Position numbers and translations under genes: made by a program. Shown here in pieces: positions 26,005 to 42,397 of a stretch of 64,000 nucleotides of DNA (positions within the stretch are counted from its first letter, which is position 1; each line of letters begins with the position of its first letter). The notes below the pieces were generated by a model. It was not told the DNA's origin. It saw nothing but the letters and a program-made list of their open reading frames with translations, and did no database searches. Source of the stretch: Thermoproteota archaeon (GTDB lineage Archaea > Korarchaeota > Korarchaeia > Korarchaeales > Korarchaeaceae). Location: positions 1 to 64,000 of the forward strand of contig JAOZFH010000050.1 in assembly GCA_027491415.1 (NCBI GenBank), written 5' to 3'.

Positions 26005-26044
26005 CGCCTTTGAGGTCCAAGGAGGGTAAATAAACCGTGTGCTT

Positions 26045-26068
26045 AAGGTGCGAGGTTCTTCGCAGTTT
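26045..26068. promoter_or_regulatory. Palindromic element upstream of DUF4349 (imperfect copy)
   Basis: AAGGTGCGAGG, then TT, then CTTCGCAGTTT. The right arm matches the reverse complement of the left at 8 of 11 positions. Its centre lies about 26 bp upstream of the TATA centre of the DUF4349 gene. The same left arm recurs in the perfect palindrome at 41772-41797. Confidence 0.6.
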
Positions 26069-26091
26069 TGAAAAGGGGAGGGGGGTGTCCC

Positions 26092-27393
26092 TCAGATCCT
26101 CTCGGCCTTACCCGTGGCCAGCGGCCTCACGAAGTAGGCGGGAATGAAGCCCATCGATATGTACAGGGCCGAGAGGAGCACCGTCATCCTGGGCCCCAGG
26201 GCCTCTATCCCCCACCCCACGAACACGGCCGTCAGGTAGGCCGAGACGTGGAGCATCGACATGAAGTACTGGAAGAGGAACGACGGGAACTCTGGTGGGC
26301 AGAGGTCGCCGAGCACAGTCTCCCAAGTGGTGAAGTTGAAGCCCTCGAAGAAGCCCAGGGCGAAGGACAGCGGGTACATGAGCCAGACCCTCTCCGGGGT
26401 CAGGAGAGACATCCCGGCAAGGGATGCGGCGGCCCCGGCGAGGGAGAAGTAGTACGCCCTCTTGTGACCTATCCGGTCGGCCAGCATCCCGGTGATCGGT
26501 GATCCAACGGCGACCGCCAAACCGAAGGCCACGGAGGCTAGGCCTCCACCCCTGAGGCTCCTCCCGGAGAGTTCCTTGATCACTAGGGAGAACACGCCCC
26601 TGTTGGGGTCGAAGGAGTAGACGGACGCCCCGAATATTGCGAAGATCACGGCGGCCAGCAGCCTAGGGTCGGTGAACGTGAGGGCAAGGACCCTCTTGTT
26701 GATCCTCCTCTCCTCCGTGAGCGGGGGCTCCCTCACGGCGGCCATGGCGAAGGCCGGAATGGTGTAGAGGGCCATGAGAGAGATGGCGCCGTCCCACCCG
26801 AACCTTGAGACGGCCCAAGTCACGAAGAGGGCGGAGAGCGAGTATCCAATGGCCCTGCCCCCCCAGCCGAAGCCGAACCCCATACCGTGGTAGTCGGGAG
26901 GGGTGACGTCGAGGAGGAGAGCGTCGGCCGCGATGTCCAGGAGGGCGTCCCCCGAGAAGATGATCAGCGCGGCAGGGAACGCCTGCCTCCACGGATCCGC
27001 GGCCCTCGCGAGGAGGAAGAAGCAGACCATCCTCATGACGTTGCCGGCCATGAGGTACATCCTGCGCCTCCAGCCCCTCACGGAGGGGGTGAGGTCCATC
27101 ACCAGGCCTATGATGAACTTGAAGTGCCACGCTATGTACGCCGCGGCGACGAAGAAGCCGATGTCCGCCGGTCCTAAGCCGAATCTCTCCGACAGGTAGA
27201 ATGGGAGGAAGATCCCTAGGCTGCGCACGGCTCCCTCCGTCAGGTACACCAGCATGTAGGTGGTGGTGACCAACCTCGGACTCCAGTACTCACCGTAGAG
27301 CCTTTGGATTCTCTCCCGCTTGCTTGTTGCCGCCGAGCTTTGCCCCGCGAGATCCGGATTGGCGGCGCTCTGACTAGCGTCGTCGGCGGGCAT
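26092..27393 (-). CDS. Major facilitator superfamily transporter
   Basis: A 433-residue, 12-helix MFS carrier. After a polar N-terminal tail of about 40 residues, the first helix is VTTTYMLVYLTEGAVRSLGI. Loop motifs typical of MFS include GLVMDLTPSVRGWRRRMYL between helices 2 and 3 and MLADRIGHKRAYYFSL between helices 8 and 9. It resembles proteins of the folate/biopterin or AmpG-like branch in its helix 1 and 2 pattern, but the substrate is not predictable. It seems to be a single-gene unit on the minus strand. Confidence 0.85.
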   Translation of the reverse strand: MPADDASQSAANPDLAGQSSAATSKRERIQRLYGEYWSPRLVTTTYMLVYLTEGAVRSLGIFLPFYLSERFGLGPADIGFFVAAAYIAWHFKFIIGLVMDLTPSVRGWRRRMYLMAGNVMRMVCFFLLARAADPWRQAFPAALIIFSGDALLDIAADALLLDVTPPDYHGMGFGFGWGGRAIGYSLSALFVTWAVSRFGWDGAISLMALYTIPAFAMAAVREPPLTEERRINKRVLALTFTDPRLLAAVIFAIFGASVYSFDPNRGVFSLVIKELSGRSLRGGGLASVAFGLAVAVGSPITGMLADRIGHKRAYYFSLAGAAASLAGMSLLTPERVWLMYPLSFALGFFEGFNFTTWETVLGDLCPPEFPSFLFQYFMSMLHVSAYLTAVFVGWGIEALGPRMTVLLSALYISMGFIPAYFVRPLATGKAERI

Positions 27394-27471
27394 AGCCCCA
27401 TCGACCCCTCAGCTGGGCCCTCGTGAAATACGTTATCAATTTTAACGAACGTATGGGGGTCGACGGGCTGG

Positions 27472-27591
27472 GTGCCGCGGATGGGCGTGAAGGTGGTGAT
27501 CACGGCCGTGGTAATCGCGACCGCTTTCGTAACCTACTTGGTGCTCTACCTCCTTGGCAGGAGGTGGAAGAGAGAGCTGGGCCTAAGGTGA
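27472..27591 (+). CDS. Small single-span membrane protein (39 or 36 residues)
   Basis: A short frame not long enough for routine gene calling. From GTG 27472, or ATG 27481, it encodes one hydrophobic helix (VVITAVVIATAFVTYLVLYL) followed by a basic tail LGRRWKRELGLR, which predicts an N-out, C-in orientation by the positive-inside rule. A TATA-like ATTTTAAC (27437-27445) lies about 30 nt before the GTG. It stands alone between two larger genes. The function is unknown. Confidence 0.5.
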   Translation: MPRMGVKVVITAVVIATAFVTYLVLYLLGRRWKRELGLR

Positions 27592-27667
27592 GGCCGAGAT
27601 GGCGTTTCGCCTGTTTCAAGATCGTTCCCAGGCGTCCCTAAACTAGCCTCCCCTCCGACGCTCCCCG

Positions 27668-29050
27668 GTGAAGTGGAGAGTGGGGAGAGGCGCGCTTATC
27701 CTGATCGTCGTCCTGCTCGCAGGCTTGGTCGCCGTGGGAGTTCTTCGCTGGGTGAGGCCGACCAAACTCCGTGGCGGGGGCGGGACCGAGTCCCTCACGC
27801 TAGACCTCAGCGACGCGAGGGATCCCGAAGAGATTTCCTACGAGTTGCTGGCCAACGGGACCATCGAGGTTGAGGGTCGCCAGGTCAGGTACCTCGCCGT
27901 CGAGTTCCCGGGCATCAGGTGGAAGGGTAAGCGGTGGAGTCACCGGGCCTGGATCTTCTACTCGGAGGGGTGCGACTCCGAACTCGGCGCCGTCGTCGCC
28001 GGCGGTCCTGGTCCCGCCGGGTTCAAGCGATTCGCGGTGGAGTTCGGCGCCAGAGCGGTCGCAGAGACCTGCGTCCCCGTTCTGATGCTGTTCGACGTGC
28101 CCAACGGCCAGTTCGGGCTGGAGGAGACTGAACTCATGGCTTTCTCCATGTCCAAGGCACTCGAAACCGGCGACCTGACCTGGCACCTCGTCTATCCCAT
28201 GGCGTTCGCCTACTCACGGGCCATGACACTCGAGAGCCCGCTGGTCCCCTCCCACCCGAGCCGCTTCGTGCTGAGCGGAGGTAGCAAGAGGGGACTCACG
28301 ACTTGGATCGTGGCCGCCTACGACGACCGGGTCGCGGCGATAGCGCCGCGCTCCTACAACGGGGCCAACCTCACCGCCCTGCTGCGGTCCCACTATCAGG
28401 CCTACGGGATGCCGATCGGGTCGCTGGCCGTTATGGAAGCCTACGGCGTCCTGGACCAGGTGAACCGCTCAGCCAACGTGGATGACCTGCTGGAGGTGTA
28501 CGATCCGGTGAAACACTTCGACGAACTCTCGATCCCGATCATGGTGATCTTCGGAACTGCCGACCAGCTGAGTCCACCGGCAGTCGAGTGGACCTACGCC
28601 TCCTACTACCACGGGCCGCTGTGGTTCGAGATCGTCCCCAACGCTACGCACACCGGGCTCCACTCGACCGAGAGGGCGGCGGCAGCCTGGAGGGCCTTCC
28701 TAGCCCACGTCACCGGCGCGGCCGAGCTCCCTGAGGTCAATGTCCACGTCTCTCACTCGACCGGCGGCTCTGCGTGGGTCTTGGCTGAGGTGACCTGCCG
28801 CTGCGAGATCCTGGGGGTCACCGCGTGGACGGCGACCTCTGAGAGCCTCGCCGGGTTGGTGACAGCGGGCTGGAGCCCAATCCGGATGACCCTGGAAGAG
28901 GGTGTCTGGAGGGCGTCGATTCCAGTGACCGAGGCCTACGCTGGCGTGTTCGTGGAGGTGCGGTTCTCCTCGGGTGGGGTCACGGGGTACGCGTCCTCTC
29001 CCCGGTTCGTGATCGTCGAGGGGGCCCGGCGCGGGGCTAGCGAGAGATGA
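27668..29050 (+). CDS. PhoPQ-activated pathogenicity-related (PqaA-like) alpha/beta hydrolase
   Basis: A 460-residue protein with an N-terminal membrane or signal helix (GALILIVVLLAGLVAVGVL). The alpha/beta-hydrolase core has the nucleophile elbow VLSGGSKRGLTTWIVAAYD (Ser in GGSKRG), the Asp region IMVIFGTADQLSPP and the His in PNATHTGLHS. These match the PhoPQ-related protein family, named from bacteria but of unknown substrate. The domain after residue 360 is an immunoglobulin-like beta-sandwich. It is predicted to be extracellular. The start is GTG. The 3' end overlaps the convergent AIR-synthase-like gene by 14 nt. Confidence 0.85.
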   Translation: MKWRVGRGALILIVVLLAGLVAVGVLRWVRPTKLRGGGGTESLTLDLSDARDPEEISYELLANGTIEVEGRQVRYLAVEFPGIRWKGKRWSHRAWIFYSEGCDSELGAVVAGGPGPAGFKRFAVEFGARAVAETCVPVLMLFDVPNGQFGLEETELMAFSMSKALETGDLTWHLVYPMAFAYSRAMTLESPLVPSHPSRFVLSGGSKRGLTTWIVAAYDDRVAAIAPRSYNGANLTALLRSHYQAYGMPIGSLAVMEAYGVLDQVNRSANVDDLLEVYDPVKHFDELSIPIMVIFGTADQLSPPAVEWTYASYYHGPLWFEIVPNATHTGLHSTERAAAAWRAFLAHVTGAAELPEVNVHVSHSTGGSAWVLAEVTCRCEILGVTAWTATSESLAGLVTAGWSPIRMTLEEGVWRASIPVTEAYAGVFVEVRFSSGGVTGYASSPRFVIVEGARRGASER

Positions 29051-30035
29051 GACGGGAGTAGGGGTCCTCAGCCTCCCGGGGGAATGGCCTCCCCCCTGAA
29101 GGGCCCAGGATCAGCCTCTCCTCTGGCCTCCCGAGGAGCGCGCCCACGACCTCGGCAGAGATGCCTATGACCCCCAGGCACCACACAGCCTCCCTAGCCC
29201 ACTCTGGCCTGACGACCGCCACCAGCAGACCGGAGCTGGAGGCGGCCAGCGGATTGAACCCGTGCTCGTCGGCCAGGGCCAGGAGTTCCGGGGGGATCGG
29301 GAGCTTCTCCTCCTCCACGTAGAATCCCAGCCCGGAGGCGTCCGCCAGGTCGTTCAGGGCCCTCACGAGCCCGCCCTCCGCCCCGTCCTTCATGGCCAAG
29401 GCCAGGCCCCTGCGGGAGAGGAGCATGGCAGAGTCCACGACCGACAGGTCCCTGTAGTAGCCCCTCCATCTCCTGACACCCTCCTCTCCGTAGGCGTCTG
29501 CCAAGACGGAGGGTCTGAAGTGGGCAAGGGAGTACAGAAGTTCGCCTCCGACGGCGCCGGCCAATAATATCTTGTCTCCGGAGGAGGCGTTCGAGGGGAG
29601 CATCAGTCTGTCGACCCTCCCGGCCACCGTCGTCACCGCGACCGGCTCGCTCACGCCTGGATACCAGCCGGTGTGACCGGTCACCACGGAGGCCCCGTAC
29701 AGGCGCGCCTCCTCGTGGATCTGCCGCATGATCTCCACGGCCTCCTCGCCGGGGAACCCCGCAGGGAGGAGGAGGTTGACGGCCACGTACTCGGGCCTTC
29801 CCCCCATGACGGCAACATCCGAGGCCGTAAAGTGGAAGGCCAGTATCCCGAGGTGTTCCCCCGGGACCCCAAGGGCCGGGTCGGTGGCCCAGACGTATAT
29901 TGACCTTGAGCCCGAAACGACCCCCGCGTCCAGGAGCGGGTTGGGTGGAACCTTGACATCCGCCCGCCTAGCGCCGGACAGCCTCGTGATCAGGTTCAGG
30001 AGTTCCCTGCGGGCCTTTCCGGACAACTGGGACAC
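29037..30035 (-). CDS. AIR-synthase-related (PurM/HypE/ThiL-fold) protein
   Basis: A 332-residue protein of the PurM-like ATP-binding fold. Recognisable parts are the N-terminal glycine-poor region with DAGVVSGSRSIYVWATDP, the FTASDVAVMGGRPEYVAVNL helix that follows, GASVVTGHTGWYPGVSEPVA and the C-terminal DGAEGGLVRALNDLADASGL. This is the layout of HypE and ThiL relatives, but the C-terminal cysteine of HypE is missing and no hydrogenase gene is near. Archaeal members of this subgroup are of unknown role. It starts with GTG at 30035. Confidence 0.8.
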   Translation of the reverse strand: MSQLSGKARRELLNLITRLSGARRADVKVPPNPLLDAGVVSGSRSIYVWATDPALGVPGEHLGILAFHFTASDVAVMGGRPEYVAVNLLLPAGFPGEEAVEIMRQIHEEARLYGASVVTGHTGWYPGVSEPVAVTTVAGRVDRLMLPSNASSGDKILLAGAVGGELLYSLAHFRPSVLADAYGEEGVRRWRGYYRDLSVVDSAMLLSRRGLALAMKDGAEGGLVRALNDLADASGLGFYVEEEKLPIPPELLALADEHGFNPLAASSSGLLVAVVRPEWAREAVWCLGVIGISAEVVGALLGRPEERLILGPSGGRPFPREAEDPYSRLISR

Positions 30036-30073
30036 CGCTCCCCACCTAGGGTGAGACGGGCGCAGGGCCCGGA

Positions 30074-30391
30074 TCAGCGCCTGTCCCTTTCCGCGGGGCC
30101 TGACCCGATGTACACCGCCTGGATCGCCCCCCTCTCGTCCAGCCGGAAGGATATCTCCCCCCTCTCCCCCATCTCCTCCAGAACGAGTCTCGCGAGATCT
30201 CTAAGCCTCTTCACGTCCTCCAGGACCCTCCTGGAGCCCCTGATCCTCTCCCTCTCCCTCGCCCGAAGGGCCGCCTTGAGGGCCTCTCGGAGGGCCACTC
30301 TGTCCCTTGATGACCTGAGCTCATCCCAGTCAACTAAGGTCAGGGACTCGCCGCCCCCAGGCAAGGTCCTCCGCCTCCTCGAGAAGGTCAA
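30074..30391 (-). CDS. Hypothetical helical protein next to broken nucleotidyltransferase gene
   Basis: A frame of 105 codons; the conserved-looking part begins near LTLVDWDELRSSRDRVALRE and continues as charged helices (REALKAALRARERERIRGSR) to LDERGAIQAVYIG. A TTG or GTG start downstream of the first ATG is possible. It overlaps the decayed nucleotidyltransferase gene by about 60 nt, the geometry of a two-gene cassette of toxin-antitoxin type. The partner is broken, so this may be a survivor of such a module. No family is firmly recognised. Confidence 0.45.
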   Translation of the reverse strand: MTFSRRRRTLPGGGESLTLVDWDELRSSRDRVALREALKAALRARERERIRGSRRVLEDVKRLRDLARLVLEEMGERGEISFRLDERGAIQAVYIGSGPAERDRR

Positions 30392-30909
30392 GGACCCCCT
30401 CTTCTTTAGCTCTTCTCCTGAGGAAGTCCAAGTCTATGCGCCCCCTCAGAGCCCTCAGGAGAAGGATGGTCTTGTCTCTATCCATCCCAGAGTTCCAGAA
30501 CTTCCGGCCCGCCAGGGACTTGACGATCAGATCCTCAGGGGCCTCGACGTAGAGCCTCCTCCCTCTGACCACCAGTTCCACGGGCCTCCTCTTCCCCGTG
30601 GGGACCGTCCCGACCAGGTCGATCCCCCCCTCTCAGCGAGGGGACGAAGCCGGGGGACCCAAGTCCTCCCAACCCTGTCGGCGATCGCATCCAAGGACTT
30701 CACCAAGTCGATCCCGCGTACACCTCGACTGAGAAACCTCCAACGAGAATCGCACTGCCAATCCCCCTGGCCTCGAGGCACTCGTTAAGCCACGAGAAGA
30801 AGATGAGGACCCTGGTTGTCGGATCGGGCTCGCAAGCAAGCTCCCGCAAGACCTCTCCCTCGAATACCCCCACCATCTCGTCTACATGCTCCTTCCGGTT
30901 CAAGCCCAT
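30330..30909 (-). pseudogene. Broken nucleotidyltransferase-superfamily gene
   Basis: The N-terminal piece in one frame reads MGLNRKEHVDEMVGVFEGEV, then VLIFFSWLNECLEARGIGSA and ILVGGFSVEVYAG, which is the GG..E..AG signature of minimal nucleotidyltransferases. A second frame continues GIDLVKSLDAIADRV and a third gives IDLVGTVPTGKRRPVELVVR, GRRLYVEAPEDLIVKSLAGR and KFWNSGMDRDKTILLLRAL. At least two frameshifts (near 30720 and 30640) separate the parts. Intact relatives are about 190 residues and often work as antitoxins or tRNA- or protein-modifying enzymes. Confidence 0.7.
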
Positions 30910-31030
30910 CACCACGCTCAGAGAGGCTGCGCGCTGCGCTGACACCCGCTCCCATTAAACCCGTCACCCATGCAGAGAGCTGGGGGTCGAACGCGAAAGC
31001 ATAAGTGCTAAGACCGATGAACTTAGGCCA

Positions 31031-32965
31031 GTGGAAGCACGGCCTTCGGTCGCTGCGTCAGCCATCTTCTTGGCGCTGGTGCTCTGGTCTCCCTTGGGAT
31101 TTGAACGCGGCTCCAGCTGGTTGACCGCCACGAGGAGGCTCTCACCAACGCCTGGTATCCCGCAGGCGGAGGACCTCCCCCTAATCTGGCCCACGCCGAG
31201 AGGTTCGTGGGGTCCAACTGAAGTGACCTCCCTCGACCTGGGGCCCGGACGAATTCCACTCTCGATGGAGGGCCCAGGTACCCGCGCGCCAAGGCCAAAC
31301 GCCAGGATCAGCCTCTACTTCATGGGACCGCCCACCGAGGACAAGCTAAGCCTAGCCAAGATGGCAGATATAGTAGAGGCCGCAGAACTCTCACCGGGGG
31401 TTAGATCAGAGCTCATCGACGCCGGGGCGCGGCTGATGTTGTACGACTGGATATTCGCCACGTACGAGTGGGATGCGGGCGGGTACAGGCGAGAAGACTT
31501 CCTCGTCAGCTTCGACGGTCCCTACGGGAGGGCGTTGGCCTACGACTATGGGAGCGAGGAGCTCCGAAGGGAGAGGATCGTCAGGCTGCTGGACGAGATT
31601 TCCGATGGGGGGTACTCTGCAATCTTCTTCGACTGGTTCCCCGTGGCGTGCTCGGAGGACTGGGCGTCTGAGGTGCCGGGGTACCTCGAGGAGTTCAGGG
31701 AGAGACACCCCAACCTCACGCTATGGGAGGCGCTCAGGGAGTTCCTGGTGGGCCTGAGAGAGGAGGCCGAGGCGAGGGGGATCGACCTTGTGATCGTGTC
31801 CAACCAAGCCTACAGGTGCGGAGCTGAGCCGCTGAGGTACGTGGACTGGGACATCAGCGAGTCGTACTTCTCCGACGTCGTCCAGGGGTACACGGTGCTC
31901 TTTCCGTGGGATGCGGACTCGTGGGAGAGCCCGGCTATGTACGTCCCCGAACTCGTCGTCCAACCCTACGAGGAGGCCCGGAGACGCAACCCTAGGCTGG
32001 GGTTCTTTCACCTCAGCTACGCCCTTCCCGACAGGGGAGGCAGGGAGGCGGCCTTCTACTCCTTTGCTGGGGCCAGGGTGTTCGGCCACGACGGGGCGGC
32101 CTACTCCCCGTCCGAGGTGTGGGGAGAAGTCCAACTCGAGGACCTGCCGAACCTCTACTGGCTCGGGTGCTGGAGGGGATCTGCCTTCGGGGATCGCTGG
32201 GCCATAGGCGTCTACGACGCCGGATTGGTCGCCGTGGGGCAGGCCCCGGCCGCGGTACCCGAAGGCTTGGTGGGGGCTTGGGCGCTCGACCTGTACGACG
32301 GAGTCCTCTTGGAGCTGCCCAGTACGCTGGACTTTGGCAGGGATCCCTGGGGGAGGGTGTTCCTCCTCATGGCGGAGGAGGGCGCAGAGGTCCGCTGCAC
32401 GTCGTGGGAACTCGAGGTCCCCGTGTATGGGAAAGTCGCGCGGGCGGCGATTGAGACCATAGCCGCGGCTGGGGACTGCGAAGTGAGGATCTACGCCCTG
32501 AGCCGGCAGGGCGCACTCGAGCTGTGGTCTGAGTGGCGGGAACCAGGGATCGAGGTGGCGATCCTGTCGAACGACATAGACTGGAACCTGACCGGGACTC
32601 GGCTGGCCGACGAGATTCGTCAAATGGGCGTCGAGGTCCGCAGGGCCCGGCTGGACCAGGAGGGGTTGAGGCTGGCCATGCTAGACAGCAAGGTGCTCAT
32701 CCTGCTGGGCGGGCCCGAGAGCCCCCACCTCGGGGACCTGCTCCGCCCGCTCACCCGCGCGCTGGGCGGGCCGGGGATTTACGATCTCGGCCCCGGGAGG
32801 GTGCTGATATGGCTGTGGGGGGAGGATCGGTTTTCGACGAGGAAGTACGCGCTCGATAACTTGGACGTCGTCCTGGAGACCGTGGCCGACCTGATCTCCC
32901 CGATACCACGCTGCCACCAGATGGACGGGCTCACCTACGCCCCTCTGACCGGGTCCGACGGGTGA
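31031..32965 (+). CDS. Large secreted glycoside-hydrolase-like protein
   Basis: A 644-residue protein with a signal peptide (SAIFLALVLWSPLGF). The central 300 residues look like a TIM-barrel hydrolase: SLYFMGPP, LMLYDWIFATYEW, GGYSAIFFDWFPVACSEDW, LVIVSNQAYRCG and VDWDISESYFSD, with acidic residues at strand ends as in GH-type barrels. The last 120 residues (VAILSNDIDWNLTGTRLADE, KVLILLGGPESPHLGDLL, RFSTRKYALDNLDVV) resemble a domain at the end of archaeal S-layer-type proteins. Role and substrate are unknown; cell-surface polysaccharide processing is inferred. The start is GTG at 31031. Confidence 0.65.
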   Translation: MEARPSVAASAIFLALVLWSPLGFERGSSWLTATRRLSPTPGIPQAEDLPLIWPTPRGSWGPTEVTSLDLGPGRIPLSMEGPGTRAPRPNARISLYFMGPPTEDKLSLAKMADIVEAAELSPGVRSELIDAGARLMLYDWIFATYEWDAGGYRREDFLVSFDGPYGRALAYDYGSEELRRERIVRLLDEISDGGYSAIFFDWFPVACSEDWASEVPGYLEEFRERHPNLTLWEALREFLVGLREEAEARGIDLVIVSNQAYRCGAEPLRYVDWDISESYFSDVVQGYTVLFPWDADSWESPAMYVPELVVQPYEEARRRNPRLGFFHLSYALPDRGGREAAFYSFAGARVFGHDGAAYSPSEVWGEVQLEDLPNLYWLGCWRGSAFGDRWAIGVYDAGLVAVGQAPAAVPEGLVGAWALDLYDGVLLELPSTLDFGRDPWGRVFLLMAEEGAEVRCTSWELEVPVYGKVARAAIETIAAAGDCEVRIYALSRQGALELWSEWREPGIEVAILSNDIDWNLTGTRLADEIRQMGVEVRRARLDQEGLRLAMLDSKVLILLGGPESPHLGDLLRPLTRALGGPGIYDLGPGRVLIWLWGEDRFSTRKYALDNLDVVLETVADLISPIPRCHQMDGLTYAPLTGSDG

Positions 32966-33093
32966 AATCCGGGGCCCCTGGCTCTCCTCACAGGGCGTCA
33001 ACCTCTCGAGAGCGATCTACGTCCGCCGGGAGCCGTGCGCGTCAAGTCCAACGGGAAGACGACGAAGGGGCGTCCCTGGAGACTTCAGTAAGT

Positions 33094-33228
33094 GATTTAT
33101 ACTGCCCGGGGTTTCTCGCCCCCCGGCGGGCACCGGGGGAGCTGGGGCAACCCGGCTGAGAGGGCGGCTAGCGCGCCGCCGACCCCTGGAACCTGATCCG
33201 GGTAATGCCGGCGTAGGGAGCGTGCCCG
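33094..33228 (+). promoter_or_regulatory. TPP (THI-box) riboswitch with its promoter
   Basis: A TATA-like GATTTATAC (33094-33102) is followed about 25 nt later by a complete thiamine-pyrophosphate aptamer (33127-33228). The closing helix P1 is a perfect 7-bp pair, CGGGCAC (33127-33133) with GTGCCCG (33222-33228). The invariant CTGAGA is at 33156-33161, the variable P3 hairpin GGCGGC...GCCGCC follows, then ACCTGAT at 33191-33197, GGGTAATGCCGGCGTAGGGA at 33200-33219. All strongly conserved parts of the family are present. The genes downstream are a thiamine ABC transporter, the classic target. Confidence 0.95.
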
Positions 33229-33287
33229 CGGCACCTCCTTATGCCGACTCCCGCGGCCCCTCCGGTGTCTGCCGGGAGGGGTGTGGT
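33229..33287 (+). promoter_or_regulatory. Candidate expression platform masking the thiB ribosome site
   Basis: CCCCTCC (33257-33263) is exactly complementary to GGAGGGG (33275-33281), which is the ribosome site 6 nt before the GTG start of thiB. A second small hairpin, CGGCA (33229-33233) with TGCCG (33242-33246), displays CCTCCT in its loop, also able to pair with the ribosome site. Translation control by sequestration is therefore likely; which pairing forms with TPP bound is not decided. Confidence 0.65.
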
Positions 33288-34397
33288 GTGAAGTGGACTG
33301 CCGGCCGGATCCTGGCCCTAGCCCTTGCGGCGGTGGTGGTGCTAGCCGCAGCGTACGTGGCCCTGCAGAGGACCGGCGAGGCTCGGGCCGAGAGGAGGCT
33401 GGTCATCTACACCTACGAGAGCCTGCTCAAGTGGGGGGACGATCCCAACGCGACGCTCGACGCGGTCTACGGCGAGTTCGAGCGCAGGTACAACTGCGAG
33501 GTCGTGGTCAGGGAGTTCGACGACGCTAGGTCCGCGCTGCTGGCCCTGATCCAGGAGAAGGACAACCCGCAGGCGGACGTGATCATAGGGATTGACAACG
33601 TGCTCGTGCACGAGGCCGTCGATGCCGGGGTGCTCGAGCCCTACACCCCGAGCAACCTCGACGAGATCTACGACTGGCTGGTCAGCTCCCTAGATCCGAC
33701 GCACCACGTCGTGCCCTACGACTACGGCCTCATAGCACTGGTGTACGACAGTCAGCGCATCGCAGAAGAGGAGATGTCCAGCCTCACGTTTGACGACCTG
33801 GCCAGGCCGGAGTACGCCTCCAAGATAGTTGCGGAGGATCCGACCGTGAGCAGCACCGGTCTCGGCTTCCTGCTCTGGCAGATCGCCTACTACAAGATGA
33901 CCGGCGGAGACTGGAGGAGCTGGTGGACTCGGGCGATCGACAACGGCATGCTGGTCGCGGGGAGCTGGGGGGACGCCTACGACGTCTTCCTGGATGAGGC
34001 TCAGGGCAGGCCGATCGTGGTGAGCTACGGGACCGACGGGGCGTACTCCTACCACTTCTACCAGGAAACCAGATACAGGGCGACGCTGGTGACCTACAAC
34101 GGTAAGGAGTGGGGCTGGCTCCAGATAGAGGGCATAGGCCTAGTCAAGGGGGCCCCGCACAGGGAGCTGGCGGAGGAGTTCATCGAGTATTTCCTCAGCC
34201 CCGAGGTGCAGAGGCTCATACCGCTGAACAACTGGATGTACCCGGCCAACGAGAACGTCCAGCTTCCCCCAGAGTACGAGCGGTACGCCATCGATCCCAC
34301 GAAGATCAGGCTTATGAACGAGGTCCTTTCCACGGACGAGATCGCGGCCAACCTCAGGCGTTGGCTAGACGAGTGGAGGAGGGCCGTGGGGTCCTAA
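33288..34397 (+). CDS. thiB: Thiamine ABC transporter, substrate-binding protein
   Basis: A 369-residue extracytoplasmic binding protein. An N-terminal membrane or signal helix (ILALALAAVVVLAAAYVALQ) precedes the mature part with the ThiB pattern LVIYTYESLLKWGDD, ADVIIGIDNVLVHEAVDAGV, VVPYDYGLIALVYDS and DDLARPEYASKIVAEDPTVS. It captures thiamine or its phosphates and hands them to ThiP. GTG at 33288 was chosen because the signal helix begins there and a ribosome site (GGAGGGGTG) precedes it. The longer open frame starts inside the riboswitch and is not used. Confidence 0.93.
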   Translation: MKWTAGRILALALAAVVVLAAAYVALQRTGEARAERRLVIYTYESLLKWGDDPNATLDAVYGEFERRYNCEVVVREFDDARSALLALIQEKDNPQADVIIGIDNVLVHEAVDAGVLEPYTPSNLDEIYDWLVSSLDPTHHVVPYDYGLIALVYDSQRIAEEEMSSLTFDDLARPEYASKIVAEDPTVSSTGLGFLLWQIAYYKMTGGDWRSWWTRAIDNGMLVAGSWGDAYDVFLDEAQGRPIVVSYGTDGAYSYHFYQETRYRATLVTYNGKEWGWLQIEGIGLVKGAPHRELAEEFIEYFLSPEVQRLIPLNNWMYPANENVQLPPEYERYAIDPTKIRLMNEVLSTDEIAANLRRWLDEWRRAVGS

Positions 34398-34421
34398 CCC
34401 TAGTAAGGTCGAGGAGAGGCG

Positions 34422-36002
34422 GTGCGGGTGTTCCTTAAGGGCGGACGGCTAGGGCGGGACGTGGAACACTGGGCTCCCGCCCTCCTAGCCGCCGCCCTCC
34501 TCTTTTCTCTCTGGGCTTCATCGGCCGGGGCGCTGCTCGTTGAGGGGGTTCGAGGCATCGTCGACGCCGCCAGAGACCCGGTAGTCTCTAGGGCCCTGAG
34601 GTTCTCCACCTTACAGGCCTTGGCCAGCGCCGGGGCCGCCGTGCTGCTCGCCCTGCCGCTGGCCTACCTCAACTCCACGTACGACTACCCCGGCAGGAGC
34701 CTGGTGGAGACACTCGTGGCGCTTCCGTTTACCCTTCCGACCGTGTCGGTGGCACTAGCCTTCCTGCTACTCGTTAGGGCCGGCCTAGTTCCGCAGGGCT
34801 GGATCGCGATAGTCTTGGCGCACGCCTACTTCAACTTCGGGGTCTGCGCCCAAATGATCTCCGCATCCCTAGGATCCGTTGGACCGAGCATCGAGGAGGC
34901 GGCCGAGACCCTTGGAGCGGGGCCGCTCGCGAGGTTCTTCAGGGTCACACTCCCACTCGCGCTGAGGGGGATCGCGGCCGGCTTCTCTCTCACGTTCTCC
35001 CTGAGCTTCACCAGCTTCGCTATACCCCTACTCCTGGGGGGACCACGGTACAGGACCCTCGAGGTGGAGATCTACTCCCTGTACAAGGTGTTCCTCGACG
35101 CCGACCGGGCCTCCGCCGCGGCGCTGATTCAGCTGGCCGCCACGATGGGTGTTGCGTGGGCATCCCTGAGGTGGTCCCCCGTGGGGGTTTCGGGGGAGGT
35201 CAGGAGGAGGAGGCCCCTGGTGGGATCCCAGGCGGCCCTCGCCGCGGTCTATGGATACGCCTCAGCCGCTCTATCGATCTACCCCGTCGCCTACCTGTTC
35301 GTGCGATCGCTCTTCGACCCGCTGACCGACAGGTTCAATCCCACCGTCTACGCGAGGATCCTCTCGACCGCCTACGACGCCTCCCTAGGGACTGAACCAT
35401 TCCGAGGGCTCCTCAACAGCGCCTTCTTCGCCGCCACGACGGCCGTGGTCACCCTCTCCCTCGCCGCGCTGGTCGCCTCGGCTCCGCCCAAGGCCAGGTC
35501 TCTGGCCCTAGGGGTCTCATCTCTACCCCTTGGTACCTCATCCATTACGGCTGCCCTGGGGCTCTACGCCCTCGGCCTCAGGCTCAGGGCCCCCGGCTGG
35601 TCCCTCATAGCGGCGAGCCACATCATGATAGCGGCGCCCTTCGCCATGAGGGCCGTGGAGTCGGGCGTGTCAGGCCTGTCTGAGAGCCTGGTGGACGCCG
35701 CCGAGACGCTGGGCCTCAGCAGGCTGGACGCCACCTTCAGGGTGCTCCTGCCGGCGGCCGCTCCCGCGGTGCTCTCTGGCGCCTTCTATTCCCTGGCCCT
35801 CTCGCTGTCTGAGACGGCGGCCAGCGCGCTCCTGGCCTCCCCGGCGACGCAGACCATGACCGTGGTGGCCCTCAGGTACGCGGGGGTGAGGAGGTTCCAG
35901 GAGGCCGCGGCGGTCTCGTCCCTCGTGGCCCTGCTGACGTGGGGGGCGCTGTGGGCAAAGCAAATCGCGGAGGGGAGAATGGGGTGGTTGAGGTCGAGCT
36001 GA
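34422..36002 (+). CDS. thiP: Thiamine ABC transporter, permease
   Basis: A 526-residue fused permease with two transmembrane halves, each containing the EAA loop that docks the ATPase: IEEAAETLGAGPLARFFRVT and LVDAAETLGLSRLDATFRVL. About 12 helices are predicted, as in bacterial ThiP. It begins 24 nt after thiB, and its 3' end overlaps the thiQ start by 19 nt, so the three genes are one operon under the TPP riboswitch. Confidence 0.93.
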   Translation: MRVFLKGGRLGRDVEHWAPALLAAALLFSLWASSAGALLVEGVRGIVDAARDPVVSRALRFSTLQALASAGAAVLLALPLAYLNSTYDYPGRSLVETLVALPFTLPTVSVALAFLLLVRAGLVPQGWIAIVLAHAYFNFGVCAQMISASLGSVGPSIEEAAETLGAGPLARFFRVTLPLALRGIAAGFSLTFSLSFTSFAIPLLLGGPRYRTLEVEIYSLYKVFLDADRASAAALIQLAATMGVAWASLRWSPVGVSGEVRRRRPLVGSQAALAAVYGYASAALSIYPVAYLFVRSLFDPLTDRFNPTVYARILSTAYDASLGTEPFRGLLNSAFFAATTAVVTLSLAALVASAPPKARSLALGVSSLPLGTSSITAALGLYALGLRLRAPGWSLIAASHIMIAAPFAMRAVESGVSGLSESLVDAAETLGLSRLDATFRVLLPAAAPAVLSGAFYSLALSLSETAASALLASPATQTMTVVALRYAGVRRFQEAAAVSSLVALLTWGALWAKQIAEGRMGWLRSS

Positions 36003-36985
36003 GGTCCGTGAGCAAGAGGTTCGGAGACGTGGTTGCGCTGGAATCCGTGACGCTCAGGGCTCCGGAGGGCACCATCACCGCCGTGCTGGGCCCGAGCGGG
36101 TGTGGGAAGACCACGATGCTGAGGGTGGTCGCTGGCCTGGAGAGGCCGGACTCCGGCAGGGTGTTGTTCGGCGGAGTCGACGTCACCGAGGTGCCCCCAA
36201 GGGAGAGAAACGTCGGTATGGTCTTTCAGGACCTCGCGCTGTTCCCGCACATGACCGTCCTAGACAACGTGGCCTTCGGGCTCGTGGCGAGGGGGGTTGG
36301 GGGGGTCGAGGCCAGGCGCCGGGCCAGGGAGTACCTGAGGCTCCTCAGGCTCGAGGGCCTCGAGTCGAGGTATCCTCACCAGCTCTCTGGAGGTCAGAGG
36401 CAGAGGGTGGCCATAGCGAGGGCGCTCGCCCCGGAGCCAAGGGTGCTCCTCCTGGACGAGCCCTTCGGGGCGCTCGACGCCAGGCTCAGGGAGGATCTCC
36501 TCTGGGAGATCAGGAGGCTCCACGCCGAGAGGGGCTTCACGGCCATCCACGTGACCCACGACCAGGCGGAGGCGCTGGCCATCGCCGACAGGCTGGCGGT
36601 GATGAGGGCCGGCAGGATCTTGAGGGAGGGGCCGGCCGGCGAGGTGGTGGACGATCCTCGGAGCGAGTTCGTCGCCAGGTTCCTCGGTGCAAACGTGCTC
36701 AGGCTGGAGCGGAGGGGCGGCAGTAGATACGGGCTTGGGGATTACGAGGTCGAGCTGGAGTGGACTGGGGAGGCGGTCTCCGTGGCCTTCTACCCCGAGG
36801 AGGTTGAGCAGACGCCCGCCGGAATTGCCGCCACGATAATCGCGGTGTCCCGCTCCAGATCCGCCTACAGGGTGAAGGGAAGGGTGGGGGATGAAGAAGT
36901 CGAGCTTGTGTTGGAAGACCCGCCGACTGGGTCGACGGTAACCTTCAGGCCGACTGAGCTGAGGATCCTGCGTACGAAGGCGTGA
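35984..36985 (+). CDS. thiQ: Thiamine ABC transporter, ATP-binding protein
   Basis: A 333-residue ABC ATPase. Walker A is GPSGCGKTT, the signature is QLSGGQRQRVAIARAL, Walker B is VLLLDEPFGALD, and the switch histidine lies in HVTHDQAEAL. The C-terminal 100 residues form a TOBE-like regulatory domain as in the MalK/PotA/FbpC branch. GTG at 35984 was chosen as start because the ABC fold begins VEVELRSVSKRFG. It is longer than bacterial ThiQ, which lacks this extension, but the operon and riboswitch identify the substrate. Confidence 0.9.
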   Translation: MVEVELRSVSKRFGDVVALESVTLRAPEGTITAVLGPSGCGKTTMLRVVAGLERPDSGRVLFGGVDVTEVPPRERNVGMVFQDLALFPHMTVLDNVAFGLVARGVGGVEARRRAREYLRLLRLEGLESRYPHQLSGGQRQRVAIARALAPEPRVLLLDEPFGALDARLREDLLWEIRRLHAERGFTAIHVTHDQAEALAIADRLAVMRAGRILREGPAGEVVDDPRSEFVARFLGANVLRLERRGGSRYGLGDYEVELEWTGEAVSVAFYPEEVEQTPAGIAATIIAVSRSRSAYRVKGRVGDEEVELVLEDPPTGSTVTFRPTELRILRTKA

Positions 36986-37034
36986 CGGAAAGCCGGACTG
37001 AGGGGGCCTGCAGCGGCGCGCCCTGAGCCCCCTG

Positions 37035-38075
37035 TCATGTGGGAATTATGATCCGCCCCACCACCCGGGTAACCGGGATCCGCGCCGGCGGATGGGAGGA
37101 GCGCCGCACGCCGCTCAGGCACCTCCACGGGTCGGCCAGGCCCTCCCCTGGGAAGTAGGCCCCGTAGTCCTCCCCCGACCCGTCTCCCCTGTCGTAGAAC
37201 ATCCAAACCCCCACCAGCGAAGGGTTCCTCACGGACCTGAGGTTTGGGCATATCCCGCTGAGCCACTCCTCCACGTCACCTGCCCCCTCATAGCCCGTCA
37301 CCACCATCTGATTGGGCAGGGTGCCGGAGAACTTCGCTATCTCGTCCTCGCTGTACAGCTCGGTGATCACGAGGAACTCCGGTCCGACTCCCGCCAGTTG
37401 ATTGACCAGCGGCGCGAACTCCTCATCCAGCCAAGCGGCGTAGACCCCCTTCAGCGCCTCGGGGAGGGAGTCGTAGAACCGGATTATATCCGCGTAGTCA
37501 CGCCTATAACTCCACCCGTACCATATGGCCACCTTCCAGGTCGAGTTCAACGTTGAGAGAAACTCCATGAGCCCCAGCACCAGCCCATTCATGGGGGTTC
37601 CGGGTTCGAGGTAGTCGTCCTCGGGCCCGCACTTCCACTTGGGGAAGACCCCCCAGATGACCCTCATGGATCGCTCCTCCGCGAGGTCGTCTATCACCCT
37701 CAGGTTGTGGCGAAAGAGGGGGGAGTCGTCCGCGGGGATGATCACTATCACGGTGTTGTAATACCTCCCCATCAGGGAGAAGTCACTCCCGATCGGCCTC
37801 CTGCAATCTGAGAGGTTGGCGTACACGTAGAAGTATATCCTGTCCCCGTATTCCTCCGTCCAATAGCTTGTACAACACTCCGACGGGAGGATGTAGACTA
37901 TCCCCCTTATTCCCTCCCCCGCGAACTCCGACGGGAGGATGGGCGGGGTCGTGGCGGTCTGCGTCTGACCTCGCTCTCGATTACCGGCCGGACTCCCTAG
38001 GGCTTGAGGCGCGATGATGAGGGCCGAAGCGGCCAGCGCCGCTAAGAGCGTCGACAATCCGGGGAATCGGCCCAC
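37035..38075 (-). CDS. Secreted protein of unknown function
   Basis: A 346-residue precursor with a signal peptide (LSTLLAALAASALIIAPQALG). The mature part looks like an alpha/beta barrel: GIVYILPSECCTSYW, VIVIIPADDSPLFRHNL, RVIWGVFPKWKCG, VAIWYGWSYRRDYADIIRFY and GVYAAWLDEEFAPLV, with paired cysteines (CC near residue 68) suggesting disulfides outside the cell. The layout recalls the secreted barrel protein at 31-33 kb, and both flank the thiamine operon. No family is recognised with confidence. Confidence 0.55.
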   Translation of the reverse strand: MGRFPGLSTLLAALAASALIIAPQALGSPAGNRERGQTQTATTPPILPSEFAGEGIRGIVYILPSECCTSYWTEEYGDRIYFYVYANLSDCRRPIGSDFSLMGRYYNTVIVIIPADDSPLFRHNLRVIDDLAEERSMRVIWGVFPKWKCGPEDDYLEPGTPMNGLVLGLMEFLSTLNSTWKVAIWYGWSYRRDYADIIRFYDSLPEALKGVYAAWLDEEFAPLVNQLAGVGPEFLVITELYSEDEIAKFSGTLPNQMVVTGYEGAGDVEEWLSGICPNLRSVRNPSLVGVWMFYDRGDGSGEDYGAYFPGEGLADPWRCLSGVRRSSHPPARIPVTRVVGRIIIPT

Positions 38076-38195
38076 CTGGCCGCACCTGTGGATCGATTGA
38101 CAGGGTTGCCCATAAGGGTTAACCGGAGGCCGCGCCCCGATGCCTCGTCCCTCCTCACCTCGAGAGAGGAGGTTCGGCGTGGCGTGACAGGCTCC

Positions 38196-38576
38196 TTAAC
38201 TCTCCCTAGACCTCCAATTCCTCTCCAGTTCCTCCAGTATGCCAGGGTCGCCGGCCAGGATCCTACCCACGCGCAGGATCTCATCCACGATTCTCCTCCC
38301 TTGCCTGGCCATCTCGACGAGTTCGCTCTTCTCGTAGACGAAGGGGTCTAGGTCGATCGGGAGGCTCGGATCCAAGAACTCCCCCACACGCTCCGCCGGA
38401 TCGCCTGGGGCTGATCCGTCGGGCACGACCACCACTACATCGGCGTCCGAGAAGGCCGTGTAGTTTCCCCTGGCCAGCGACCCTATCAATATCACCGCCA
38501 GGGCTCCCTCCCTCACCTTCCTCCGGGCGTAGGAGGAGAGTGATCTCACAACTCCATCGTAGTCAAGCCTGAACAA
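38196..38576 (-). CDS. MNT-type minimal nucleotidyltransferase (antitoxin)
   Basis: A 126-residue nucleotidyltransferase with the signature LIGSLARGNYTAFSDADVVV (GS, then DxD), and an additional acidic pair in PIDLDPFVYEKSEL. In MNT/HEPN modules this enzyme neutralises the HEPN RNase, in studied cases by adding AMP to it. The start is probably TTG at 38576, overlapping the HEPN stop by 14 nt; there is no ATG nearby in frame. It is the second gene of the pair. Confidence 0.82.
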   Translation of the reverse strand: MFRLDYDGVVRSLSSYARRKVREGALAVILIGSLARGNYTAFSDADVVVVVPDGSAPGDPAERVGEFLDPSLPIDLDPFVYEKSELVEMARQGRRIVDEILRVGRILAGDPGILEELERNWRSRES

Positions 38577-38958
38577 CTTTACCCCTGACCCACTCGAGTA
38601 TCTCACTCGCATAGGAAATCGCCCTCTCGGCCTGCTCCCTCGTGTAGTAGTCCATGGGAGCGCCTTCGGGGTGGGCGTTCGGATACCTGGAAGGGATGTA
38701 GTGCTGATCCAGCTCCTTAGCCATCTCGACGAGTTCTCGAGGAGGTCTGCTCTCCTCCGGTAGAGCCTGTAGGAGCCTGGAGACTGAGTGACCCCAGACC
38801 TCATTGCCCAGCATCTGGTGAAGAGCCTTAACCGCCTTCTCTGCCGCTTGGTGGGCGATGAGGCAGGCCCACTCGTAGAAACCATCCTCCAAAGCCCTTT
38901 TGGCAAACTCGAGGTCCCTGACGGCCTGCCTAAACCAGTCTCCAGACCGCGACACCAT
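38563..38958 (-). CDS. HEPN-domain protein (toxin)
   Basis: A 131-residue HEPN protein: DWFRQAVRDLEFAKRALEDG, FYEWACLIAHQAAEKAVKAL, GHSVSRLLQALPEE and the conserved SRYPNAHPEGAP, which contains an Rx4H arrangement as in HEPN RNases. The pair with the downstream nucleotidyltransferase is a standard HEPN/MNT toxin-antitoxin module. A minus-strand TATA-like AATTATTACC (about 38988-38997) lies 33 nt before the ATG, so the message is leaderless. Confidence 0.85.
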   Translation of the reverse strand: MVSRSGDWFRQAVRDLEFAKRALEDGFYEWACLIAHQAAEKAVKALHQMLGNEVWGHSVSRLLQALPEESRPPRELVEMAKELDQHYIPSRYPNAHPEGAPMDYYTREQAERAISYASEILEWVRGKVVQA

Positions 38959-39218
38959 CTAATGTTGTCGGACCCAATGAGGGTAATAATTCCAGCGCGA
39001 ACCCGCCGAGCCCCCGGGGAGCCCAGGGAGATCACCTGCAGCCTCCCGGCCCCACTTTCGCCGAGCTGGTGAGGTCGAGTTGACCAGGACCTAAGACCTA
39101 CCAATGCACAAGGGTCCTCTCCCCTGTCCACATGATGTCGCCGCGACGAAGAAAAAAGGGAAACCCCCAACTTGTTAATTCTGCGTGAAACCTTTTATCG
39201 GCAAAGGTCAGATGCGCC

Positions 39219-39539
39219 ATGATGCTCCCATCAACATCCTGGGTAGATGGGTTGCCTCCCGTCCTCGCCTTACTTACACTCGCGCTGATGGTGGACCTGG
39301 TTGAGAGGCTCCTCGAGTACATCGGTAGGGCGATCTGCGGGTGGGACAGAGCGCCCCCCGAGAGGTCGGTTGACCTGTGGGTTCTGGCCGCCCTGATCAC
39401 CCTTGTCCTCTTCGTGCCGGGGCTGGGCCTGGGGTCGGTGTTCGCGCTTGGGCTCGTACTGATAGTCCTCGACCTGGTCTCCAAGCGAGAGAGGAGAGAA
39501 GAGAGGGTGAAGGCAAGTCAACCCCAGCTCTCTGCGTAA
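39219..39539 (+). CDS. Small membrane protein
   Basis: A 106-residue protein with two strongly hydrophobic segments (LPPVLALLTLALMVDLVERL and LWVLAALITLVLFVPGLGLG then SVFALGLVLIVLDL) and a charged tail SKRERREERVK. ATG at 39219 lies about 25 nt after a TATA-like CTTTTATCGG. The 3' end overlaps the convergent DUF3160 gene by 22 nt. No family recognised. Confidence 0.65.
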   Translation: MMLPSTSWVDGLPPVLALLTLALMVDLVERLLEYIGRAICGWDRAPPERSVDLWVLAALITLVLFVPGLGLGSVFALGLVLIVLDLVSKRERREERVKASQPQLSA

Positions 39540-41734
39540 AGATCCGAGATCCAGTCCGGGAGTTCGGGCGGATTCTGAGCGAGCATATCTCTCCACGATT
39601 CGTCGGTCAGCCTGTCCGAGATTGGGTGCTTGAACTCGTAGTACGTGAGAACAGGTCCGACTGCCACGTAGGTCCCATCTGGCGCTGGGAAAATCACCAC
39701 CAATAGATCTAAAGGTCCAACCCCCTCCTCTAGGGCCAGCCCGGAGTTCAGGTCTGTGTGGACATCCGCCACCATAACGGTGGACTTGGACCTCTCCGAG
39801 AGGCCTGACAGGATGTCTTCCAACACCTCCCCGATCCTCAGCAGGAACTTCACATCCTCCCTGGAGAGGGCCTCTCCAGCTAGCTCCCTCCTGGAGATCC
39901 TCGCCAGATTCTCCAGCAAGTCCTCCATGCCCGCCAGCCTGCGATCGGCATCCTCAGTCAAGTACCCCAAGGAGCGGAGGCCCTCCCTCGACTGCCTCGT
40001 GAGTGCGAGAAGCCTGTCGTAGAGCTCTGGGATCGGCTCCACGAAGGCCAGCCTCTCGGGCGTGGCCGGAGGCGCTGCAGCCAACTTTGGAGTGTAGCTC
40101 TGCTTCGCGTAGAGAATCGTGTCGTGCCTCAGCTCGGACCACGACGCCAGGGCCGCGAGGAGCTGTCTGCGCTCCCACGCCTCGGTCCTCATGTACGCGG
40201 GGTAGCCCTCCGGCCTGGGGCTCGCGAGGATCCTCAGCGCGTCCAGCCAGGACCAGTACAGGTTCCTCGACCAGTCATCCTCGCTCAGGTTCGAGAACTC
40301 CTCCCTGAGCCGGGCCACCACGTCCTCGTAGCGCTCGTAGTCGGCATCCCCCTCCTCCCTCATCACCTGCAGGGCGGTCTCGCTCCCGACCACGGCGAAC
40401 CAGTCTAGACCCCTCGGGAACACCCTGGCCGGCCCGCCGTCGGTAAGGCCCAACGTGAACGGCTCGTCGTCTCCCGTGTACAGGCCGACCGAGGGGGTCA
40501 CGAGCCTCTGGAAGACGTACGAGTCTGGGACGTATCGCTGGCCCATGAACCTCATCCCCGCGCTCGCGTCGAGGCACTCCGCCAAGTCCTCCTCCGTGAA
40601 GGGCGGGTAGACCACACAGAACCCGGTCCCGCCGTAGATCTTGGGTCTCCCCATCCCGGCGACCAGCGCCCTGATCTCGTCTATCCTGCCGGGAATCTGC
40701 CGGGCCTCGACCGAGTCTCCAAAGAGCTCTGCGAGGGCCTCCAGGTAGTCGTAGGGGGTTAGGTCGTCCGCAAAGCCCACAAAGAAGGCTGTCACCGAGT
40801 ATATATCGCTCCAGACCTCTCCCACAGTCCTGCCGTCCCCGAGCTCCACGTTCGGCATGGCCGCGGAGATCAGAGCGGCCTGGAGAGTGAGCATCCTGGC
40901 CTGGTCGGCCGTCACGAACCCGCCGGGCCCCCCTCTCAGGAGGAAGGCCATCCTCCCGTACCACATCATCGCCCTGAAGTACCTCCGGAGCGTCTCCGAG
41001 CGAGTGTAGTGGCCTCTGGGAATGTACTGGCTGTAGTCTTCCTTGTACCAGAAGAGGGGGCTTCTCTGCACCCCCGGGTGGGACTCTATCAGGCTCAGCT
41101 CAGCCTGAACGACGTCCCGCACCTCTCTGGGGGGCTCGAAGTCTGGGTCTAAGAGCGAGAGGGCCACCGCGAAGTATGCCGCGTTCCTCCTGGCGGCCTC
41201 CGCCACCTCCCCCTGCGATCCCATGCTGAGGGTGAGGCTCTCCTCCATCATGGCCCTCGTGACTGCCACCAAGTCCGGGTAGATCTTCTGCTCCTCTATC
41301 TGGGCGAGTGTGGTGTCGAAGAGCACGTGATACGCGTGCAGTACGGTGTCTGCCGTGACGTAGACGGGCACGGTCGGGGGCAGGGCCTCGTAGGCCTCCG
41401 AGAAGTCGTCGAAGGCGCCCCACCTCACCAAAACGAAGCCCCTCTCCAGTACGGACGTCCTCTGGGCCGGGCCCAGGTTGAGGACATCCATGGCGTCTGG
41501 GTTGGCCAGCTGAGACTCCTCGAGGGGGAGCGACTGACTCAGGGAGGTCGGAGCTGGCCTGGCCGGGGAGACGCTTGGCGGGGGGAGCCCCGGCCTCCTG
41601 AGAGAGGAGAGCTCGTAGCCGACCCCGCTCGGACCGACCACACCACCGCCGCCCCGACCAGACCATAAGAAGTAGGCGGCGGCCGCGGGCAGCGAGAGGG
41701 CGAGCGCCAGGACGGCGAGCGATCGGGCGCGCAC
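39518..41734 (-). CDS. DUF3160 surface protein
   Basis: A 738-residue protein with an N-terminal membrane anchor (LAVLALALSLPAAAAYFLWS) and a large extracytoplasmic DUF3160 domain: FDDFSEAYEALPPTVPVYVT, ADTVLHAYHVLFDTTLAQIE, YFRAMMWYGRMAFLL, and near the end VADVHTDLNSGLALEEG and VGPVLTYYEF. DUF3160 proteins are secreted, all-helical and of unknown function. GTG at 41734 was chosen: a TATA-like GGTTAAAAG (41755-41763) is 25 nt upstream and the membrane helix follows directly. Longer frames would read through this promoter and the palindrome behind it. Confidence 0.85.
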   Translation of the reverse strand: MRARSLAVLALALSLPAAAAYFLWSGRGGGGVVGPSGVGYELSSLRRPGLPPPSVSPARPAPTSLSQSLPLEESQLANPDAMDVLNLGPAQRTSVLERGFVLVRWGAFDDFSEAYEALPPTVPVYVTADTVLHAYHVLFDTTLAQIEEQKIYPDLVAVTRAMMEESLTLSMGSQGEVAEAARRNAAYFAVALSLLDPDFEPPREVRDVVQAELSLIESHPGVQRSPLFWYKEDYSQYIPRGHYTRSETLRRYFRAMMWYGRMAFLLRGGPGGFVTADQARMLTLQAALISAAMPNVELGDGRTVGEVWSDIYSVTAFFVGFADDLTPYDYLEALAELFGDSVEARQIPGRIDEIRALVAGMGRPKIYGGTGFCVVYPPFTEEDLAECLDASAGMRFMGQRYVPDSYVFQRLVTPSVGLYTGDDEPFTLGLTDGGPARVFPRGLDWFAVVGSETALQVMREEGDADYERYEDVVARLREEFSNLSEDDWSRNLYWSWLDALRILASPRPEGYPAYMRTEAWERRQLLAALASWSELRHDTILYAKQSYTPKLAAAPPATPERLAFVEPIPELYDRLLALTRQSREGLRSLGYLTEDADRRLAGMEDLLENLARISRRELAGEALSREDVKFLLRIGEVLEDILSGLSERSKSTVMVADVHTDLNSGLALEEGVGPLDLLVVIFPAPDGTYVAVGPVLTYYEFKHPISDRLTDESWRDMLAQNPPELPDWISDLYAESWG

Positions 41735-41771
41735 GAGCTTCCACCCGAGCGACCCTTTTAACCCTGCGCCG

Positions 41772-41797
41772 AAAGGTGCGAGGCTCCTCGCACCTTT
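41772..41797. promoter_or_regulatory. Perfect 26-bp palindrome upstream of DUF3160 promoter
   Basis: AAAGGTGCGAGG, spacer CT, CCTCGCACCTTT: the 12-nt arms are exact reverse complements. Its centre is about 25 bp upstream of the TATA centre of the DUF3160 gene. The same motif, less perfect, stands in the same place before the DUF4349 gene (26045-26068). Chance formation of such a long palindrome in 64 kb is very unlikely. Confidence 0.8.
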
Positions 41798-41866
41798 TTG
41801 GCGAGGAGCGCCTGACCGGCGCCGGCCGGCCTCCATTTTATAATCGGGTCGACCCGACCTGATGGC

Positions 41867-42397
41867 GTGCTCGCCCGGAAGGCCCTCTCGGTTCTCTGCG
41901 CGTCGCTCGGCATCGTGTACCTGGCCCAAGACCTGGTCCTCGCCTTCTCCGTCGAGGTGGCCCCGGTCTGGCTCGTCCTGGAGAACACCTTCTTCGCCTT
42001 CGCCTACGTCAGTCTCGGGACCTTCAGAACCCTTAAGAGGTCGGAGATTGTCCTCTCCGCGGTTGCGGGGTTCAGCGCGGGGAGGACAGTTGACTCGATT
42101 CTGGACGCGTCTGCCCCGGCCTACCTACGTGCGCTTCGCTCGGCCCTGGCCCTGGTGGCGCTGGCGGTCGTGGGTCTGTCTTGGGCCTCTATCTCGTGTG
42201 CTGGGGATGGTAAGAGAGAATGCCGGGGAGAGCTGGGGCGAGATAGAGCGGATGAGCAGGCGATTCATGAAAGGAGGAGTGAGGACTCAACGCCGCCAGC
42301 ACCTGCCGCGCGCCGATCCGCTGGCTCCAGGCGGAGGAACCTGAGGGATCTATCTGCCCGCCGGTCGAGTCGGCCCCGGGGAGGACCCCATCCCTAG
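41867..42397 (+). CDS. Membrane protein with Arg-rich tail
   Basis: A 176-residue protein with four membrane segments in the first 110 residues (ALSVLCASLGIVYLAQDLVL, LVLENTFFAFAYVSLGTF, VLSAVAGFSAG and ALALVALAVVGLSWASI), then a polar Arg/Ser-rich tail. GTG at 41867 is 27 nt from the centre of the TATA-like ATTTTATAAT (41835-41844). The tail looks unlike a folded domain; a frameshift near 42210 that ends the natural protein early cannot be excluded. No family recognised. Confidence 0.55.
   Translation: MLARKALSVLCASLGIVYLAQDLVLAFSVEVAPVWLVLENTFFAFAYVSLGTFRTLKRSEIVLSAVAGFSAGRTVDSILDASAPAYLRALRSALALVALAVVGLSWASISCAGDGKRECRGELGRDRADEQAIHERRSEDSTPPAPAARRSAGSRRRNLRDLSARRSSRPRGGPHP

Follow-up and report, generated by a model that had tools for sequence, protein, structure and literature searches.

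The window, i.e. the whole stretch of 64,000 nucleotides that was analysed, is korarchaeal and carries two minus-strand genes, each preceded by a TATA box and a palindrome (operators 1 and 2), and a candidate regulator gene lies elsewhere in the same genome (G000):

39518 to 41734, minus strand: DUF3160 gene, GTG start at 41734 (Pfam PF11369, E = 1.8e-189)
41755 to 41762, minus strand: GTTAAAAG, the DUF3160 TATA box, with 11 bp between it and the core of operator 1
41772 to 41797, no strand assigned: operator 1, AAAGGTGCGAGG-CT-CCTCGCACCTTT, a perfect 12-2-12 palindrome
24991 to 25998, minus strand: DUF4349 gene, ATG start at 25998 (Pfam PF14257, E = 4.4e-51)
26027 to 26034, minus strand: TTTATTTA, the DUF4349 TATA box, with 11 bp between it and the core of operator 2
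26045 to 26068, no strand assigned: operator 2, the degenerate palindrome AAGGTGCGAGGTTCTTCGCAGTTT, 3 mismatches to the consensus
G000:C1:12316, outside the window: candidate regulator gene, 258 aa, ArsR-like winged helix plus two transmembrane segments

The sequence-only reading had named the two genes DUF3160 and DUF4349, which is borne out by Pfam. Judging from the translations, the DUF3160 product has a signal-peptide-like N-terminus and is secreted, and the DUF4349 product combines an N-terminal signal or anchor with a coiled region and a C-terminal transmembrane segment; the DUF3160 transcript is probably leaderless. No convincing relative of known structure was found by sequence for either protein. 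DUF4349 is hardly described in the literature searched, and DUF3160 figures in a list of secreted families of archaeal dark-matter islands (PMC4158269).

The perfect 12-nt arms of operator 1 and the degenerate copy are both there as that reading described, and so is their common position before the TATA box, the distance from palindrome centre to TATA centre being 26 bp in both promoters. On the minus strand (i.e. the gene strand of both) an inner 22-mer (8-6-8) ends 11 bp before TATA in each case. In operator 1 this 8-6-8 repeat (41774-41795, AGGTGCGA-N6-TCGCACCT) is the predicted functional core, and the DUF3160 promoter reads AGGTGCGAGGAGCCTCGCACCT-ttcggcgcagg-GTTAAAAG; the core of operator 2 (26046-26067) reads AACTGCGA-N6-TCGCACCT and its promoter AACTGCGAAGAACCTCGCACCT-taagcacacgg-TTTATTTA. 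In the sister species operator 1 is conserved at the orthologous place and operator 2 is identical. A 176-aa membrane-protein-like gene without Pfam match (41867-42397, plus strand) diverges from the DUF3160 gene and shares its intergenic region; its own TATA-like box (TTTTATAA, near 41835-41842) is ~40 bp from the palindrome and therefore does not have the 11-bp geometry.

That the palindrome would not be expected by chance, as had been claimed, agrees with its two matches in the window (at most 3 mismatches) versus none in 100 dinucleotide-preserving shuffles. A search of the whole genome (1.78 Mb in 63 contigs) with the 24-mer gave no match beyond the two in the window. A looser scan with AGGTGCGA-N6-TCGCACCT (at most 3 mismatches) gave four good sites, namely the two in the window plus C39:8534, which precedes the gene of a secreted 426-aa protein, and C1:12252, which precedes the gene of the 258-aa winged-helix protein. 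In the other species of the genus the four orthologous places carry sites in the same scan, and the remaining 3-mismatch matches are not common to both species. The flanks in the intergenic region of the secreted protein differ between the two species, with both half-sites retained. When the composite element was searched for (half-site, N6, half-site, 11 bp and TATA, with at most 1 mismatch), exactly four promoters were found in this genome, i.e. those of the DUF3160, DUF4349, secreted S-layer-anchor-like and winged-helix/two-transmembrane genes. The motif is thus not frequent at random positions, which would have spoken against an operator, since all four occurrences in 1.78 Mb lie in promoters. 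The same search in the sister species returned three of the four promoters, the fourth having a one-base deletion next to TATA.

Further candidates did not extend the set. The extra 2-mismatch matches inspected in G004, G007, G013 and G016, as well as the extra composite matches inspected in G003 and G007, were coding, lacked the TATA geometry or were not conserved. At G000:C5:25396 (L017) a half-site stands 11 bp before an A-rich box, and it was treated as chance, its counterpart in the sister species not being found. Within the window, a motif match at 45448-45469 (AGCTTCGGGCGAGGTGGAAGCT, 16.1 bits) is identical in the sister species and has no TATA box 11 bp away; it is probably coding sequence. 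Distant archaea show scattered 3-mismatch matches.

The secreted 426-aa protein gave a good structure model (pLDDT 85.7). Among archaeal structures, this model is closest to the domain that anchors the Methanococcus voltae S-layer protein in the cell wall (9fsa, probability 1.00, E = 3.8e-3), and the match of the protein to Pfam S_layer_C is sub-threshold (E = 0.062). Going by the model, the label S-layer-anchor-like is suggestive only. Directly upstream of this gene lies that of a large protein, likewise secreted, that has EF-hand-like DxDxDG segments (L025, G000:C39, 6429-8501) and a C-terminal region resembling, by eye, that of the S-layer-anchor-like protein.

Orthologs from 24 genomes of the family, covering 5 genera, were used to follow the operator beyond this genus, in which the motif is AGGTGCGA-N6-TCGCACCT. 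Across the family the half-sites drift (AGGTGCGA, TGGTTCGA, AGGTTCAA), giving a pooled motif WGGTTCRA-N6-TYGAACCW with T4 and A19 near-invariant, and the 11 bp before TATA are retained. This is the case for the promoters of DUF4349 in G013 (TGGTTCGATCCTCGTTGAACCT-11-TTTTTAGG), DUF3160 in G006 (AGGTTCAATGATCATTGAACTT-11-TTTATATC), the secreted protein in G007 (AGGTTCAATGAAATTCGAATCT-11-TTTATTAC) and the regulator in G013 (AGGTTCGACGCGTATTGAACGT-11-TTTATATC). In a leave-one-gene-out test, a weight matrix from three genes was applied to the fourth, against a background of ~305,000 positions with known sites masked. A site at p < 0.05 per region, with an A/T-rich box at the fixed distance, was found before 19 of 20 DUF4349, 8 of 12 DUF3160, 10 of 10 secreted-protein and 20 of 21 regulator genes, although the test was not fully blind, because the first list of sites had been collected with a consensus from all four genes. 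The TATA spacing was kept out of the matrix score and is therefore an independent check. Absence from orthologous promoters, the other observation that would have counted against an operator, is thus not what the family shows, 57 of 63 promoters having the site at the same TATA spacing. In the remaining four DUF3160 promoters the matches at this position are weak, and no recognisable site was seen in the promoters of one regulator gene (G017, L036) and of one DUF4349 gene (G008, L078).

Outside the orthologous set, the operator is absent from the promoters of six homologs of the secreted protein that are not its orthologs (one divergent, the others of the ACIPT type). The ACIPT-type homologs without operator occur in several g3 genomes (L102, L105, L108, L111 and L120), and it seems that this branch either left the regulon or never joined it. 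Beyond the family, in the class-level outgroup G025, the regulator gene alone is preceded by a partial site (AACTACAGAGTATGCTGAACCT-tttcactcagc-TTATAAG), DUF4349 having none, and in three more distant genomes, where DUF4349 is present and the regulator absent, no site precedes DUF4349. The site thus follows the regulator. As read from these genomes, there is an operator of fixed geometry, conserved across the family and defining a regulon of four members. The proposal that the palindromes are the operator of an undescribed surface-protein regulon is accordingly strongly supported, with two members in the genome in addition to the two originally proposed.

The gene of the winged-helix/two-transmembrane protein is present in 23 of the 24 family genomes and in one genome of the same class, and is directly preceded in this genome by a HAD phosphatase gene, the same neighbour being seen in the upstream sequences of relatives. 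The N-terminus of its product matches HTH_20 (41.3 bits) and HTH_5 (29.1 bits) above the Pfam cut-off, and nothing else in Pfam, HAMP included, was found above it. AlphaFold gives a confident winged helix (pLDDT > 90), separated by only a short linker from the first transmembrane segment, and two long helices with a disordered loop between them; the two hydrophobic segments (~114-150 and ~201-226) recur in 16 of 17 aligned members of the family. Foldseek matches are to ArsR-like proteins (e.g. PH1932 and Phr). In profile searches the protein scores below the cut-off for ArsR/SmtB metalloregulators (NF033788, 34.9 bits versus 55) and far below that for NCBIfam Phr (21 bits versus 320). Among plasmid records, only HTH domains of halophiles matched. 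A covariation between recognition helix and half-site (KHH in g1 versus VFH or IFH in g3) was considered and rejected, being broken by g3 genomes with TCGCACC half-sites.

Since 20 of 21 genomes have the site before its own gene, the winged-helix/two-transmembrane protein is the strongest candidate for the cognate regulator, one that would also act on itself. Alone, such a site shows only that the regulator gene belongs to the regulon; the identity of the binding protein, its activating role and its signal are what we infer. We put a probability of roughly 0.6 on a small autoregulated korarchaeal regulon in which a dimeric, membrane-anchored winged-helix one-component activator reads the palindromes. 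A dimer of the regulator would bind the 8-6-8 inverted repeat, where it would be placed immediately outside the BRE, at 11 bp from TATA on the upstream side, and probably help to recruit TFB/TBP. The DUF3160, DUF4349 and S-layer-anchor-like genes and the regulator's own gene would thereby be activated in response to the state of the cell envelope. The wider version, i.e. a family-wide envelope-sensing regulon in which a membrane-tethered activator with a short extracellular sensing loop switches on surface proteins and itself, its operator drifting and the geometry being kept, is more tentative, its chances lying a little below even.

Most ArsR-like proteins are repressors, and negative autoregulation is common. 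With such proteins being the closest folds, it is conceivable, if rather unlikely, that the same regulator acts in the opposite sense on the same regulon, silencing its own gene and those of the surface proteins until it is released by a signal from the envelope. A repressor needs no rigid spacing, however, and usually overlaps the BRE/TATA or the start site, whereas the site lies outside both BRE and TATA, at a constant 11 bp from the latter in four different promoters, which is the place occupied by known archaeal activators. Its location directly upstream of the BRE therefore favours activation. For Tar, the palindromes are upstream of BRE/TATA and activation has been obtained in vitro (PMC6737238), and flaB needs the ArnR boxes, which are located between its positions -43 and -84, for promoter activity (PMC6396743).

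Less likely still is a real regulon whose operator is bound by another transcription factor, with the membrane-anchored winged-helix protein as no more than one of the targets. A promoter site alone cannot separate regulator from target, and further winged-helix families are conserved in these genomes; however, autoregulation is the usual pattern of a local regulator, the site follows the presence of the winged-helix gene across the phylum, and the remaining members of the regulon are all structural surface proteins. One such further winged-helix family, distinct from the regulator, is represented by L060 (G000:C25:34704-34922), L058 and L192, and in several relatives the start of its gene overlaps or adjoins the end of another gene.

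That the palindromes are a repeat element, an RNA hairpin or terminator, or a chance occurrence is highly improbable. A T run comes after the palindrome at 41772-41797 on the plus strand, and this palindrome could fold into a hairpin; however, their place upstream of TATA puts the elements outside the transcripts. Their orthologous positions, drifting sequence and fixed spacing are unlike those of a copied repeat, and chance is excluded by the shuffles together with the composite count.

The activator reading has its closest parallel in ArnR and ArnR1 of the archaellum network of Sulfolobus acidocaldarius (PMC6396743), which are likewise membrane-bound one-component regulators with an N-terminal HTH and two C-terminal transmembrane segments, and which control genes of surface structures by way of inverted repeats immediately upstream of the BRE. 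By analogy, the korarchaeal regulator may work like ArnR, but it is not filed as a member of that family. In ArnR, a putative HAMP and a sensor domain separate the HTH from the membrane segments, whereas none is detected here by Pfam or AlphaFold; its boxes are paired (TCGAC-N5-GTCGA), whereas each korarchaeal promoter has a single repeat; and here the targets are DUF3160, DUF4349 and S-layer-like genes, with a box also in the regulator's own promoter. Tar (TK0271) of Thermococcus kodakarensis (PMC6737238) shares the single palindrome upstream of BRE/TATA and the small set of promoters, but it is a soluble activator of aromatic amino acid synthesis, and its palindrome (TGGACA-N8-TGTCCA) differs in sequence and spacer. 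Phr and PH1932 of Pyrococcus, ArsR-like proteins whose winged-helix domains are the nearest of known structure in both sequence profile and fold, are soluble, whereas the korarchaeal regulator has two transmembrane segments.

In the literature searched (mostly outside subscription papers; korarchaeal regulons, membrane-anchored winged-helix regulators, DUF4349 and DUF3160), we found neither an account of this operator or regulon nor any korarchaeal regulon with a known operator. If the envelope-sensing activator reading is true, Korarchaeota would have here their first regulon whose operator is defined. We know of no genetics in Korarchaeota; a regulon of four promoters that share one fixed geometry, and for which a candidate regulator can be named, is directly testable with purified protein. 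A single control circuit would join three poorly characterised families of surface proteins (DUF3160, DUF4349 and S-layer-anchor-like), which provides a lead to their function.
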